From Gammaproteobacteria bacterium (GTDB lineage: Bacteria > Pseudomonadota > Gammaproteobacteria > GCA-001735895): 45,972 nucleotides of DNA. Positions 35,512-44,083 of this stretch are shown here, one piece after another. The first letter of the stretch is position 1, and the number at the start of each line of letters is the position of its first letter. The notes below the pieces were generated by a model. That model searched no databases and had not been told where the DNA came from. It worked only from the letters and a program-made list of their open reading frames with translations. The position numbers and the translations under genes were made by a program. The stretch lies in contig JAIBDO010000003.1 of the NCBI GenBank assembly GCA_024686195.1, positions 1-45,972 on the forward strand, written 5' to 3'.

Positions 35512-36450
35512 ATGTTAAGCAATAGCCAGTATTCAGCATCAGATTACCAGCATACATTAAAGGATTCCGTCACCATCATTGGTCGAGGTTTACATTCCGG
35601 TTTGCGGGTGATAATGACATTGATGCCCGCCGAAGCCAATAGCGGTTATGTGTTTATGCGCCGCGATGTTACCCCATTGCGCGCTGAAGTGCCGGCGCGC
35701 TGGAACACTGTGGTCGACACGCGTTTGTCCACGACAGTAGCCAACGCATTCGGTACTCGAGTGAGCACTATTGAACACCTGTTAGCGGCGCTATCGACTT
35801 GCGGTGTGCACAATGCCCGTATCGTCCTGGATGCGCCAGAAGTGCCTATTATGGATGGCAGCGCAGCACCCTTTGTCGGTTTGATTGACATGGTGGGGCG
35901 AGAAAGTCAAGCCGCACTGATACAGGCCATTATTATTGATAAACCGCTGATCGTTGTCGGCCAGGGTAAACACGCCAGCCTGTTGCCTGCCGCCGAGTTC
36001 AGCGTCGATATGTCGATCGATTTCGATGACTCTGTAATCGGTCAACAGACCATGGATATCAAGGTTGATGAGGCGATCTTTAGTGAACAATTGGCCGCGG
36101 CGCGCACCTTTGGTTTTCAGGAGCAATTAGACACTTTGCATAAACTCGATCTGGCCAAGGGAGGCGGATTGAATAACGCGGTGCTGATTAAAGATAACAA
36201 GGTGCTTAACGAAGAGGGGCTGCGTTTCAAGGATGAATTTGTGCGCCATAAAATTCTGGATGCGCTGGGTGACATCTCGCTGGTCGGTGCCAGCATCATC
36301 GGCAAATTCATCGGCAGGCGCAGCGGTCACCAACTCAATAATCAATTGATCCGCACTCTGATGAATAACGAGGAATGCTGGCACTGTGTTCCGCTGGTAG
36401 AACATCGTCGCCAAAACCAACAAATGCAATGGTTTGCGTCAGATTCTTGA
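35512..36450 (+). CDS. lpxC: UDP-3-O-acyl-N-acetylglucosamine deacetylase (LpxC homologue)
   Basis: 312 aa; IGRGLHSG, STIEHLLAAL, VPIMDGSAAPFV, HKILDALGD (Zn ligands), SGHQLNN. Confidence 0.9.
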   Translation: MLSNSQYSASDYQHTLKDSVTIIGRGLHSGLRVIMTLMPAEANSGYVFMRRDVTPLRAEVPARWNTVVDTRLSTTVANAFGTRVSTIEHLLAALSTCGVHNARIVLDAPEVPIMDGSAAPFVGLIDMVGRESQAALIQAIIIDKPLIVVGQGKHASLLPAAEFSVDMSIDFDDSVIGQQTMDIKVDEAIFSEQLAAARTFGFQEQLDTLHKLDLAKGGGLNNAVLIKDNKVLNEEGLRFKDEFVRHKILDALGDISLVGASIIGKFIGRRSGHQLNNQLIRTLMNNEECWHCVPLVEHRRQNQQMQWFASDS

Positions 36451-38402: not shown

Positions 38403-38588
38403 AATTCCGTACGATCTGAAGCGCTTTCAATTAACGTGTAGCGCCCTGGACTGGTCATCGCTATGCGCTCAGGTTGTATCCATGGTCGATGCGATGAATG
38501 GTTTGTCTTTGACTGATGACAGTCAGTTATTCAGAGCAATCTGCCTGACCCTGCGTGACAAAATAATGAATGATGGGAATGGAATGGG

Positions 38589-38663
38589 AATGATGGGACA
38601 GACGCTCTGTAAATGGGACAGCGCGCAAAATGAAAAATGATGGGACAGACACTCTGCAATTGG
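38589..38663. repeat. Short direct repeat, two copies with a partial third between them
   Basis: AATGATGGGACAGACGCTCTGTAAATGG (from 38589) and AATGATGGGACAGACACTCTGCAATTGG (38636-38663); partial AATGGGACAG at 38612. Confidence 0.85.
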
Positions 38664-38837
38664 CTTTTCGGGTATAGAAAACCGTTCCTTAAGGTCCTTT
38701 ACCTTTCTTCCAGGTGGGAAGGGTGATGACCCACTCGAATTGTTGAATTCGGCGGTTAGGGTGTGTGTCCCTCGATATCTTGCCCATATCTTGATGAATT
38801 CGATAATTCAAGTCTGCGTATCGGGATTCTATAAAGC

Positions 38838-39152
38838 TTTATATAACAAGGTTAACTACCGATAAAAATTTATATAAACGGCTCTTTGAAATTCATCTGT
38901 TTATGTGCTTTAGCTATTAACGTGGCATATAGATTGTTTATAAGGCAATATAGGCTTATATAAACCGGTTTGAGTGCGTGAGTCGATCCACGGTTGTGAA
39001 AAATTGCACGTTATATAGAGCGCTTATATCAATAAATTGTTTTATATAAATGGAATTTAAGATGTGAGTCGACTAATGTGCATAAGAATTGCGTACCCGT
39101 TCAACCTTTTTCGTTTATATAGATTGATAAGTATTGATTATCGTACTATATA
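38838..39152. promoter_or_regulatory. Iterated TATATA operator/promoter-like array upstream of hipBA
   Basis: Four pairs of TATATA-type cores, each pair exactly 31 bp centre to centre: 38840/38871, 38926/38957, 39012/39043, 39116/39147 (core starts). Confidence 0.75.
39124..39152 (+). promoter_or_regulatory. Candidate sigma70-type promoter for hipBA
   Basis: TTGATA (39124-39129) - 17 bp - TATATA (39147-39152), ~25 bp before ATG 39177. Confidence 0.45.
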
Positions 39153-39164
39153 GCTGTTTTAAAC

Positions 39165-39527
39165 GTGATTCGCACTATGCCGAGAAGCTCACTCTCCTAT
39201 GACTTGATCAGCGATGCAGCCCTGGGTTCGTTGGCCGGTCTGGGCGCGCGCCTGAAAGAAGCCCGCTTGCTCAGAAACTGGACCCAGGCGGACGCCGCGA
39301 GCAAAGCCGGGCTGTCCGAGAGCTCAATCAGAAAAGTCGAGGGCGGTTCACCGCACATTACGGTCGGCGCCTACGCTGCGCTGCTCGACGTGTTCGGACT
39401 GCCGACAGCGTTCGATCGGGTCATCGCCCGGGGTGATGATACTCTGGGTGAGGCGCTCGGCCGGGACGCCGTGCGCAAGCGTGCGCGCGCACCGGGTGCG
39501 ACGGCTGCCGACGAGTTTGACATCTGA
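39165..39527 (+). CDS. hipB: HipB-like antitoxin, Xre-family HTH regulator
   Basis: LGARLKEARLLRNWTQADAASKAGLSESSIRKVEGGSPHITVGAYAALLDVFGL; TGATG overlap with the downstream toxin. GTG 39165 or ATG 39177 start. Confidence 0.85.
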   Translation: MIRTMPRSSLSYDLISDAALGSLAGLGARLKEARLLRNWTQADAASKAGLSESSIRKVEGGSPHITVGAYAALLDVFGLPTAFDRVIARGDDTLGEALGRDAVRKRARAPGATAADEFDI

Positions 39528-40774
39528 TGCCGGAGAAGCTCTATATCCACGTGGACCTTGGCGAAGGCAAGACCATGCTTGCCGGTCAATTGATTGTCGA
39601 CGACAGGCTCGGCCGTTTCAAATATGCGAAGGCCTATATCAACCATCCCCAGGCATTTGCCCTGGACCCGATCAACCTGCCCCTGACCGCTGACATCCAC
39701 GTCAAACAGCGTACCCGCGACACACCCGCGATGTTCGGCGTTTTGATCGACGCGGGGCCCGACGAGTGGGGCAGGCGCTGTCTCACCAAAACCCGCCAGC
39801 CGCCGCCGGTCACCCAGGTCGAATTCCTGCTCGCCGCCTCGGGCGAAGGCGTGGGCGCATTGCACTTCACCGCGAATCTCGGCGACCCGGTGCGGCCGCC
39901 GCCTGAGCGACCGTTCGCTAACCTGATACATTTGCAGCATATTGCCGGTGATATCGAGGCCGGTAAGGAAGTGGACCGTGCACTGGAACCTTATTTCTTT
40001 CACGGCAGCGGTCTCGGTGGTGCACGGCCCAAGTCACTGATCGAACACGACGGTCGCGAATGGATCGCGAAATTCAACCGCCCCTCGGATCTGGTCGACA
40101 TGTGCCGGGTCGAGCTCGCATCGATGCGCATGGCGCGCGAAGCCGGCATCGAGGCGCCGGATGTGGCCCTCACGGAAACCGATCGTGGGCCGGTGCTATT
40201 GGTAGAACGCTTCGACCAGGGCCCCGACGAACAGCATCATCTGGTCTCGGTAGCGAGTCTCATCAATAAATTTGACATCACCGAGATCGACGAATCGACG
40301 ATGTCTTATCCGGGCATTACCCAGCTCGGCAAGCGCATTGGGCATCTAACCAGCGACCTCGGCGAGGTCGTGTTTCGGCGCATGCTATTCAACATTGCGA
40401 TCGGCAACACCGATGACCATCTGCGCAATCACGCCTTCATGAAACGATCGACTGCTTCAGACTACTCGCTGTCTCCCGCCTACGATATCGTGCCCCAGAT
40501 CAGCCTGCAGGGGTCCCATGCCATCGCGATCGGTCCCTTCGGCAGCAGTCCAACCGTCGATAATATCCAGGCGGCCCTAAAGCGTATGGGTGTGGCCGAT
40601 GACCTCGGCCATGAAATCGCCGACGCGGTGCTCGAGGTGACGGCACCCTGGCGCGACTACATGACCGATGCGGGCATCGGAGCATCCGATCTGGCCGTGC
40701 TCGAACGCTGCTTTGCATTGCGTGATGTCGTCGAGCGTTGGCACAACAGAGGTGCCAGGTCCACAGGCGTTTAG
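39527..40774 (+). CDS. hipA: HipA-family serine/threonine kinase toxin
   Basis: 415 aa; GVLIDAGPDEWGRR, SGLGGARPKSLI, IAIGNTDDHLRNHAFM, YSLSPAYDIVP. Confidence 0.88.
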   Translation: MPEKLYIHVDLGEGKTMLAGQLIVDDRLGRFKYAKAYINHPQAFALDPINLPLTADIHVKQRTRDTPAMFGVLIDAGPDEWGRRCLTKTRQPPPVTQVEFLLAASGEGVGALHFTANLGDPVRPPPERPFANLIHLQHIAGDIEAGKEVDRALEPYFFHGSGLGGARPKSLIEHDGREWIAKFNRPSDLVDMCRVELASMRMAREAGIEAPDVALTETDRGPVLLVERFDQGPDEQHHLVSVASLINKFDITEIDESTMSYPGITQLGKRIGHLTSDLGEVVFRRMLFNIAIGNTDDHLRNHAFMKRSTASDYSLSPAYDIVPQISLQGSHAIAIGPFGSSPTVDNIQAALKRMGVADDLGHEIADAVLEVTAPWRDYMTDAGIGASDLAVLERCFALRDVVERWHNRGARSTGV

Positions 40775-41275: not shown

Positions 41276-44083
41276 ATGACGGAAAAATTTAACCTCGCGG
41301 AGCAAGAAGAGGGCCGCCTGAAGCGGGCAGCGTTTGTGACGTTGTTCTGTCTGCTGGCTGGGCATGCGCTTCTCGAGACGGCACGAGATGCGCTGTTTCT
41401 GACACACGTCCCCGCAGAGCAGCTACCCTGGATGTATCTGTCGATCGCCGCAGTAGTCGTGTTGTTCGCGCTGTTTCGGTCACGTTCGTATGGCGCTGCC
41501 GATCATCGCCGGGAGTTGATGGCTCTGCAGATACTTGCCGCCATCGGCACCCTTGGATTCTGGATCCTGTTGCCCGGCGAGGCACGATGGCTCTACTACG
41601 CACTTTATATCTGGTCTGGAGTGATCGGCGGGCTATTGGTCGTAACCTTCTGGTTGGTGCTCGGGGATCTCTTCACGATTACCCAGGGTAAGCGAATCTA
41701 TGCTGCAGTCGGAACCGGGGGAGCGGTCGGGGCGATCGGAGGTTTCGGCCTCGCCTCTGGACTGACTGCGATCCTTCCGCCGGAGTTTTTACTCCCCGTG
41801 AGCGCCCTCGCGTTTGGTTTGAGCGTCCTGGGGCCGTGGAAGTTGCGGCGCACGAGCGATCCCGAGCTGCTGGCTGAGCCAGAGCCAGGTTCGTCTCTTT
41901 CGAGGGAACGTGATCTTGCGAATGTAGGTTCCAGCCTGATCTCAATCCTCGGCCATCCCTATGCCTGTCGTATTGCCCTGTTGGTGGTCGTGTCCTCGAT
42001 GACCCTTACCATGGGCGATTACCTGTTCAAGAGTGTTCTTGCGCAAACCGTACCCGCGGAATCCCTGCCGGGGTGGCTCGCTCGTATCTACTTCGCTTTC
42101 AATGCCGCTTCCCTGCTGATCTTGATGTTTGGCGTGACGCGCGTGATTCATCGATTGACCGTTCATCGTACCCTGGCGATACTTCCTGTTTGCATCATTG
42201 CGGCAGCACTCGGAATCCTGGCCGGGGGCGTCCTGCTGCCGGTGCTGCTTCTCAAGTCTGCGGATGGATCGCTGCGCTACTCTCTGCACAAGACTGCAGT
42301 TGAGTTGTTGTACCTGCCGATGCCCGCTGAGATGAGAGCAAAGGTCAAGCGTGCGATCGACATCGTCGGGCAACGAAGTGCAAACGCCCTCGGCGCGCTC
42401 GTCATCCTGTTCGCACTGACCATGGGCGCGCCGACGCTGATCATCGCCGGGTCGATTTTCATCCTCGCCGCCATCTGGATCTATCTTGCGCTGGATTTGC
42501 GCGGGGCTTATCTCGACGTATTTCGAGAAGCACTCGCCGAGAAGACGATCGCAACCCGAGTCGCTGTTCCGGAGCTCGATCTGGCTTCACTCGAGACACT
42601 GATTCGAACGCTGAACCATTCCGATGATGGACATGTATTGGGCGCTCTCGAAATGCTCGATGCGCAGGGGAAAGTGGATCTGATTCCGAGCCTCATTCTT
42701 TATCACCCTTCGTCGGCCGTTGTGATTCGGGCGCTCGATCTGTTCGCCAAATCGGGGCGACGAGACTTTACGACCTTTGCCGACCGTCTCCTGGAGAATG
42801 ACGATCCTGACGTTCGTGCGGCAGTCGTGCGAGCAATCTGGGCAGTCAAACCCGACCGCCAGCAGCTCGAAGCTCTGCTCGAGGCTGCATGCTCCTGCGT
42901 ACACATTAGCGCGGTGATTGGCCTCTGGGTCAATCAATGGATGGATCCCGATCTCGCCCAGAAGGAGATCGAGCAAACGCTTCGATATCCTGCTCATAAT
43001 TGCCGGCTCGCTCTGGCCAATGCCATCAAGTTGCGGCATCTCCCCGCGTTTCGCAGAACGCTCGAGATACTCGTTCGAGATTCCAGTCCTGAGGTTCGAC
43101 GCGAAGCACTCAGCGCTATTCGAGTAAGCGCTGATGACTACTATATCCCGCTGCTCGTGCAATTATTAGACGATCGGGAAATACGCGACCAGGTTCGCAC
43201 GGCCCTCAACGAGCGGGGTGATGCCGCCCTCATCGAGCTGTCGAAGGTGCTGGCTGGGAAAAATACCGCGCCGGGCCTGCTGCGTCATGTTCCTCGTGCA
43301 ATTTCCCGGTTTCAAAGCGTCGACGCGGCAAACATCCTGCTCCAGCAACTGATTGCTGATCAAGGGGGCGATGTTGAATCTCGGGGTGAATCTCGGGATC
43401 GACACTCCGGAATGGTTCGATACAAAATATTACGCGCACTTGGGCCACTGTTGTCGGGTCCGGTTGGAGGTCAAGTCGACAAGACCCCGTTGTTGTTGGC
43501 CGTCACGCGCACGATTCGACGTGTGATTCTGAATCTGCACTGGCAAACATGGCTCGAACAGGGAAGGGAGTCGGAACCAGCGCGACAGACCTGCGGTAGC
43601 GAACTGCTGTTACAACTGCTCAAGGACAAGGAAAGGCTCGCGCTACAACGAATTTTCAGGATGTTATTCCTGATTCAGCCCGAGGAAAACTTTCGCGACA
43701 TCTGGATGGGGTTGCAAAGTACGAGTCGGCGCGATCGCGCGAGTAGTATCGAACTGCTCGACAATATTTTAGGTTCGGAGCAACGACTCACCGTCGGTGC
43801 ACTGGTAGGTTCGGGCTCTGTTGGCGAGCGCCTGAGGAAAAGTGGAAGCAACCTGGCTGATGTCAGGCTGGAGTACTCTGAACTCCTCGCTCAGATCGAG
43901 GGTGAACAGAGCCTGGTACTTAGTGGTCTTGCGATGTATCACGCTGGGGAGATCGAAGTTGCTCTGTCGGGAGCAGATGTTTTGTTGATGCGTGAGCAAG
44001 CCCTGGCAATGATCGAGGAGATGCCAGAGATTCGGCCTGGTAAATTCTCGGTGTCGTCCGACCTGGAAACTCAGGGTGCCTGA
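41276..44083 (+). CDS. NTT (Npt1/Npt2)-like MFS transporter domain fused to HEAT repeats
   Basis: ~12 TM N-terminal half (ETARDALFLTHVPAEQLPWMYL, FLVLGDLFTITQGKRIYAAVGTGGAVGAIGG, SLHKTAVELLYLPMP), then alpha-helical HEAT-like repeats (DDPDVRAAVVRAIWAV, SSPEVRREALSAIRVS). ATG 41276; ORF open from 41171. Confidence 0.78.
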   Translation: MTEKFNLAEQEEGRLKRAAFVTLFCLLAGHALLETARDALFLTHVPAEQLPWMYLSIAAVVVLFALFRSRSYGAADHRRELMALQILAAIGTLGFWILLPGEARWLYYALYIWSGVIGGLLVVTFWLVLGDLFTITQGKRIYAAVGTGGAVGAIGGFGLASGLTAILPPEFLLPVSALAFGLSVLGPWKLRRTSDPELLAEPEPGSSLSRERDLANVGSSLISILGHPYACRIALLVVVSSMTLTMGDYLFKSVLAQTVPAESLPGWLARIYFAFNAASLLILMFGVTRVIHRLTVHRTLAILPVCIIAAALGILAGGVLLPVLLLKSADGSLRYSLHKTAVELLYLPMPAEMRAKVKRAIDIVGQRSANALGALVILFALTMGAPTLIIAGSIFILAAIWIYLALDLRGAYLDVFREALAEKTIATRVAVPELDLASLETLIRTLNHSDDGHVLGALEMLDAQGKVDLIPSLILYHPSSAVVIRALDLFAKSGRRDFTTFADRLLENDDPDVRAAVVRAIWAVKPDRQQLEALLEAACSCVHISAVIGLWVNQWMDPDLAQKEIEQTLRYPAHNCRLALANAIKLRHLPAFRRTLEILVRDSSPEVRREALSAIRVSADDYYIPLLVQLLDDREIRDQVRTALNERGDAALIELSKVLAGKNTAPGLLRHVPRAISRFQSVDAANILLQQLIADQGGDVESRGESRDRHSGMVRYKILRALGPLLSGPVGGQVDKTPLLLAVTRTIRRVILNLHWQTWLEQGRESEPARQTCGSELLLQLLKDKERLALQRIFRMLFLIQPEENFRDIWMGLQSTSRRDRASSIELLDNILGSEQRLTVGALVGSGSVGERLRKSGSNLADVRLEYSELLAQIEGEQSLVLSGLAMYHAGEIEVALSGADVLLMREQALAMIEEMPEIRPGKFSVSSDLETQGA

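Follow-up and report, generated by a model that had tools for sequence, protein, structure and literature searches.

An array of eight TATATA or CATATA cores, grouped into four pairs, lies directly 5' of an intact hipBA operon in the window (the whole 45,972-nucleotide stretch of DNA analyzed here). These cores very probably mark eight HipB operators that would autorepress hipBA, forming an expanded version of the O1-O4 operators of E. coli. HipBA is the founding module of persistence. It has been argued, on the evidence of E. coli only, that the geometry of its paired operators determines whether HipA is kept in an inactive state on DNA. Paired HipB operators are known already, and what provisionally appears to be new is their expansion to as many as five pairs at a pitch of 31 bp.

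The array begins with the distal pair 1, made up of operator 1 (38834-38851; core TATATA at 38840-38845, on which the dyad is centered) and operator 2 (38865-38882; core 38871-38876). Pair 2 comprises operator 3 (38920-38937; core CATATA at 38926-38931) and operator 4 (38951-38968; core 38957-38962), and pair 3 comprises operator 5 (39006-39023; core 39012-39017) and operator 6 (39037-39054; core 39043-39048). The proximal pair is formed by operator 7 (39110-39127; core 39116-39121) and operator 8 (39141-39158; core 39147-39152). All eight are given without strand, and we infer their 18-bp extents from a 5-N8-5 frame. In each of the four pairs the cores stand 31 bp apart, and successive pairs step by 86, 86, and 104 bp, exactly as described by the sequence-only reading that preceded this analysis. 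The array contains seven of the eight exact TATATA sequences of the whole 46-kb window, and its G+C content is 32% versus 53.5% for the window. When the region 38800-39165 was subjected to 2000 dinucleotide-preserving shuffles, only 0.05% yielded at least eight sites and none yielded even three pairs at one common spacing, of which the real sequence has four, so the pairing is beyond chance. Similarly, eight randomly placed sites would share one spacing four times with P ~2e-4. A pattern search of the 2.84-Mb assembly found this array to be the sole place with pairs at 31-bp spacing. The steps between pairs showed no convincing helical period of ~10.5 bp (coherence 0.39, no peak).

The operon itself consists of hipB (39177-39527, + strand), encoding a 116-aa XRE-type antitoxin whose ATG start at 39177 is fixed by conservation, followed by hipA (39527-40774, + strand), encoding a 415-aa HipA-family kinase that is the predicted toxin. 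The hipA start and the hipB stop share one base. An HTH antitoxin gene followed directly by a HipA-family kinase gene constitutes a hipBA type II toxin-antitoxin module, and the HTH_31/HTH_3, HipA_C, and Couple_hipA domains all score above their Pfam cut-offs. By both sequence and fold, the nearest match of the antitoxin is the HipB of Pseudomonas fluorescens (9u9g; E 1.7e-9; Foldseek probability 1.00), with those of Shewanella, E. coli, and Legionella lower among the fold matches. The predicted model has a mean pLDDT of 66, which is low confidence overall, and is good over the HTH. At 43 bits, the protein falls below the 72-bit cut-off of the NCBIfam Y4mF/HipB family (TIGR03070). Its modeled XRE fold, being nearest to a solved HipB, nevertheless qualifies the window antitoxin as a predicted HipB.

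The operators are imperfect dyads with an AT-rich center, in which the conserved TTATATAA forms the N8 of a 5-N8-5 arrangement. In a profile of 42 pairs, the two best dyad centers are the middles of the two cores, and the strongest columns outside the cores are a G at +10 and a T at +12, with weaker mirror columns at -5 (C) and -7 (A). The best individual operator copies are near-perfect palindromes, and one same-genus locus carries a perfect 18-bp palindrome, GCATGTTATATAACATGC (L012). Points against the operator reading are that the dyads have weak left halves and that one of the eight cores reads CATATA. In addition, when a matrix was built from the window by itself, searching with it recovered only one of the four window pairs. 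A half-site of TGATA with N12 was also considered and dropped in favor of the 5-N8-5 frame, which is common to E. coli and to distant loci. Within the proximal pair lies a probable sigma-70 promoter (39124-39152, + strand), with a -35 TTGATA at 39124-39129 and a -10 TATATA at 39147-39152 separated by a 17-bp spacer. A generic promoter scan did not pick it up, and the two hexamers are its whole basis; both are conserved in the profile of proximal pairs from the genus.

The nearest known counterparts of this arrangement share some of its features and lack others. Four perfect TATCC-N8-GGATA operators stand at -134, -106, -67, and -39 from hipB in the E. coli K-12 sequence, forming two pairs at 28 bp with a step of 67 bp. 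HipB of E. coli binds its four operators cooperatively and bends them by 70 degrees (PMC3376134). As in the window, several paired 5-N8-5 dyads lie 5' of hipB, with the proximal pair beside the gene start (PMC3376134). The two arrays differ in pitch (28 versus 31 bp here), in the number of pairs (two versus four), in step (67 versus 86-104 bp), and in half-site, which is TATCC/GGATA in E. coli and about NNTGA around the TTATATAA center here. The earlier contention that the window differs from E. coli hipBA thus stands for sequence and pitch and fails for paired geometry, which K-12 also has. Dyads 5' of hipB in fixed-pitch pairs place the window within the HipB paired-operator architecture; the sequence type of O1-O4 (TATCC-N8-GGATA at 28-bp pitch) is absent. 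Because half-site and pitch differ, the array would represent a variant architecture rather than an E. coli-type operator. In the three-gene HipBST system of Legionella pneumophila, HipB binds multiple 18-nt imperfect inverted repeats 5' of the operon (PMC10653801). The spacing of these repeats is likewise conserved across species, but they are three single, unpaired sites with 53-bp gaps (PMC10653801). The hipBA1 and hipBA2 promoters of Caulobacter crescentus also carry a series of inverted repeats, whose intervals are described as compatible with the higher-order complex of E. coli, although the main text gives no spacing and binding there is speculative (PMC7029023).

The array is also conserved across the genus. 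A hipA ortholog with at least 82% identity is present in 15 of 31 same-genus genomes, the window's included, and the named records among these are uncultured Gammaproteobacteria, including the Olavius algarvensis Gamma 3 endosymbiont. Thirteen of the 15 carry the array at the locus, and the remaining two have a contig end within hipB or immediately ahead of it. A comparison of upstream regions, of the kind proposed earlier as a check, revealed one to five TATATA-type pairs at exactly 31 bp in all 13 same-genus hipBA loci with sequenced upstream DNA (the window among them; HipB 80-92% identical; locus L047 is cut by a contig end). Within 450 nt 5' of these loci there are 31 exact TATATA-N25-TATATA matches, compared with a mean of 0.017 and a maximum of 2 in shuffles. 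When at most one mismatch over the two cores is allowed, the genus loci hold 44 pairs at 31 bp, 41 at 29 bp, and 45 at 33 bp, the latter two counts arising from a two-base register slip inside TATATA; the even spacings around these values hold zero pairs. Across the 31 genomes, exact pairs occur 33 times at hipBA loci and 4 times elsewhere, with 9 for a reversed-pattern control, and a single stray pair match is found in one of the 16 genomes that have no hipA ortholog. Thus, the suggestion that the sites form a cooperative HipB operator array is well supported at the level of sequence, since the cores coincide with dyad centers, track hipBA through the genus, and occur elsewhere at the control level.

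Genus comparisons also bear on an alternative in which the proximal pair alone is the working operator and promoter, and the distal pairs are functionless, decayed remnants of tandem duplication. The pair number varies between species from 1 to 5, and GTGAGTCGA occurs in two spacers, at 38978 and 39064, exactly 86 bp apart, which suggests local duplication. This motif bears out part of the proposal that flanks recur in register; the other two that were cited are each one base out, with AATTGC at 39002 and 39087 (85 bp apart) and ATGTGC at 38903 and 39076 (173 bp apart). However, the ~86-bp tandem unit envisaged in the sequence-only reading is not a conserved feature. Inter-pair steps in the genus span 86-189 bp and are most often 104; the value of 86 is confined to the window, congeners having 98-189. 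In distal units, cross-genome identity is 51% for operator arms outside the core, 26% (about chance) for the left spacer, and 29% for the middle. Because arms have been kept while spacers have drifted, selection acts on the operators and their pitch rather than on a tandem unit. Furthermore, 20 exact distal pairs hold 31 bp across congeners, although decay would be expected to blur the pitch as well, and the remnant explanation is consequently unlikely. In 11 genus loci, the proximal pair is followed by the hipB ATG after 60-64 nt. A GTGC-N2-CGG-like element, ~25 nt 5' of the proximal left core, is conserved in most proximal inter-pair spacers (for example in L008 and L034), unlike the distal spacers, which are near random.

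The same pitch extends well beyond the genus. In three distant homologues (L027, L028, and L059), a different dyad, GCTCTTAAGAGC, is likewise paired at 31 bp 5' of hipB, and for this reason spacing was surveyed across 73 hipBA loci. Most came from a class-wide search and have HipA proteins mostly 27-38% identical to that of the window; the sample also takes in a few same-genus paralogues and E. coli, and the three prompting loci, re-fetched, are included. Two similar 18-bp dyads were scored at every spacing from 19 to 60 bp and compared with shuffles. In 25 of the 73 loci, against an expected 1.7, the top-scoring spacing was 31 bp (binomial p ~2e-22, a value that treats loci as independent; most are from different families and a few are close, such as L101 and L102). 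A best spacing of 31 was seen once each in shuffled sequence, in hipB coding sequence, and in DNA 540-800 nt upstream. The 31-bp spacing had a mean z of 2.62, as against 0.88 for the next. Operator sequences vary widely among the surveyed loci, as illustrated by TGATCGATATATAGATCA, TGTATACTATTATATACA, and TATGCTCTTAAGAGCATA. Other gammaproteobacterial loci (such as L118, L126, L128, and L162) thus resemble the window in having dyad pairs at exactly 31 bp and differ in operator sequence and in copy number, since the 24 surveyed loci examined for this have one or two pairs and never more, versus up to five in the genus of the window. Some surveyed loci have a best spacing of 41 or 45-47 bp, several of these with 31 second best, and the survey does not prove a 31-bp pitch for every hipBA locus. 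As secondary values, dyad spacings of 45-47 bp, which fall between pairs, and of ~41 bp recur in loci L114, L162, L096, and L094 and in L139, L155, L157, and L159, and ~41 bp is perhaps a second pitch class of four helical turns. The open-licence papers searched contained no general 31-bp rule, and the novelty of such a rule is therefore provisional.

These loci also help to evaluate the explanation that the 31-bp pitch arises as a side effect of promoter geometry. With the -35 TTGATA placed in one operator's arm and the -10 TATATA serving as the core of the neighboring operator, the 17-bp promoter spacing would fix the distance at 31, and proximal pairs do match TTGATA-N17-TATATA. Yet distal pairs, which drive no gene, are also spaced by exactly 31 bp with poorer -35-like arms, and pairs of the GCTCTTAAGAGC type keep this pitch with no TATATA core, which makes this explanation quite improbable. 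Another suggestion carried over from the sequence-only reading is that the array serves as a platform for a different protein, as an iteron, a centromere-like element, or a nucleoid-protein site, and lies 5' of hipBA by happenstance. Repeated sites this rich in A+T could attract nucleoid proteins. However, the array follows the hipBA promoter through different gene neighborhoods and occurs nowhere else in the genomes above the control level, and the same pitch is held by hipBA loci that have other sequences. Membership in an iteron or parS-like class is further contradicted by the lack of adjacent rep or par genes, none of which appeared among the Pfam matches of the five neighboring proteins scanned. 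A platform for another protein is accordingly very unlikely. A search of a plasmid collection gave no DNA match to the array, and the HipB relatives found there are all below 42% identity. The chance that TATATA merely clustered in a region that is indeed AT-rich is negligible, being refuted by the shuffle tests and by exact conservation in 13 genomes.

We infer from these sequence comparisons that HipB binds the array, and a mechanism for the paired HipB operators can be outlined. A HipB dimer, either free or within a HipA2HipB2 complex, would occupy each operator, and a pitch of 31 bp (~3 helical turns) would align the two dimers of each pair along one face of the DNA. Dimers positioned in this way might let their bound HipA subunits touch, through a presumed HipA bridge like that of the O1/O2 model for E. 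coli. In the 2015 model of Schumacher for E. coli, HipA subunits on adjacent operators are said to contact each other. The 31-bp step seems to be of greater importance than the sequence of the sites, and a pitch that stays fixed despite free operator sequence fits a protein-protein constraint. HipB on the proximal pair, which covers the probable -35 and -10 elements, would block RNA polymerase and so repress directly, and the likely contribution of the three distal pairs is additional cooperativity and a greater local capacity for HipB and HipA. With more pairs, autorepression should become steeper and a larger number of HipBA complexes should reside on the DNA. A broader and more tentative proposal, which we consider possible but doubtful, is that the 31-bp pair is a rule that holds widely for hipBA promoters regardless of operator sequence (with the 28 bp of E. 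coli as an exception) and is set by HipA-HipA contact, and that the genus arrays, with as many as ten operators, both store inactive HipA on DNA and serve as a steep dormancy switch. A pitch that persists even where the operator sequence has changed completely offers an evolutionary test of the E. coli model of DNA-held HipA. Likewise, naturally occurring promoters in which one pair is present in one to five copies provide a ready series for relating operator number to repression, toxin storage, and cell-to-cell variation.

Several additional observations concern the surroundings of the operon. Genes that neighbor hipBA in the window are absent beside it in congeners, and a mobile unit of hipBA plus array was considered and rejected. 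HipA averages 88% identity between species versus 92% for RecA, and because the two divergences track each other (r 0.87 among genus orthologs), recent horizontal spread is unsupported. HipA is unusually conserved for a toxin, both in the window and among its genus orthologs. The window proteins LpxC and TLC-HEAT were tried as vertical markers and proved unsuitable, having no close full-length homologues in congeners. The best full-length congener identities are 47% for the LpxC-like protein (35512-36447) and 27% for the TLC/HEAT protein (41276-44080), as against 82-89% for HipA, and one 80% LpxC fragment lies at a contig edge in genome G024. The window contig could be mis-binned or could be an unusual genomic region. 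Just 3' of the hipA stop, before the flanks diverge, a short tail of about CTCGTyCCGrATACTCCGA is conserved in six loci (L044, L045, L047, L049, L053, and L034). On the other side of the operon, at 38568-38660, the intergenic motif GATGGGACAGAC(A/G)CTCTG is repeated just 5' of the array.
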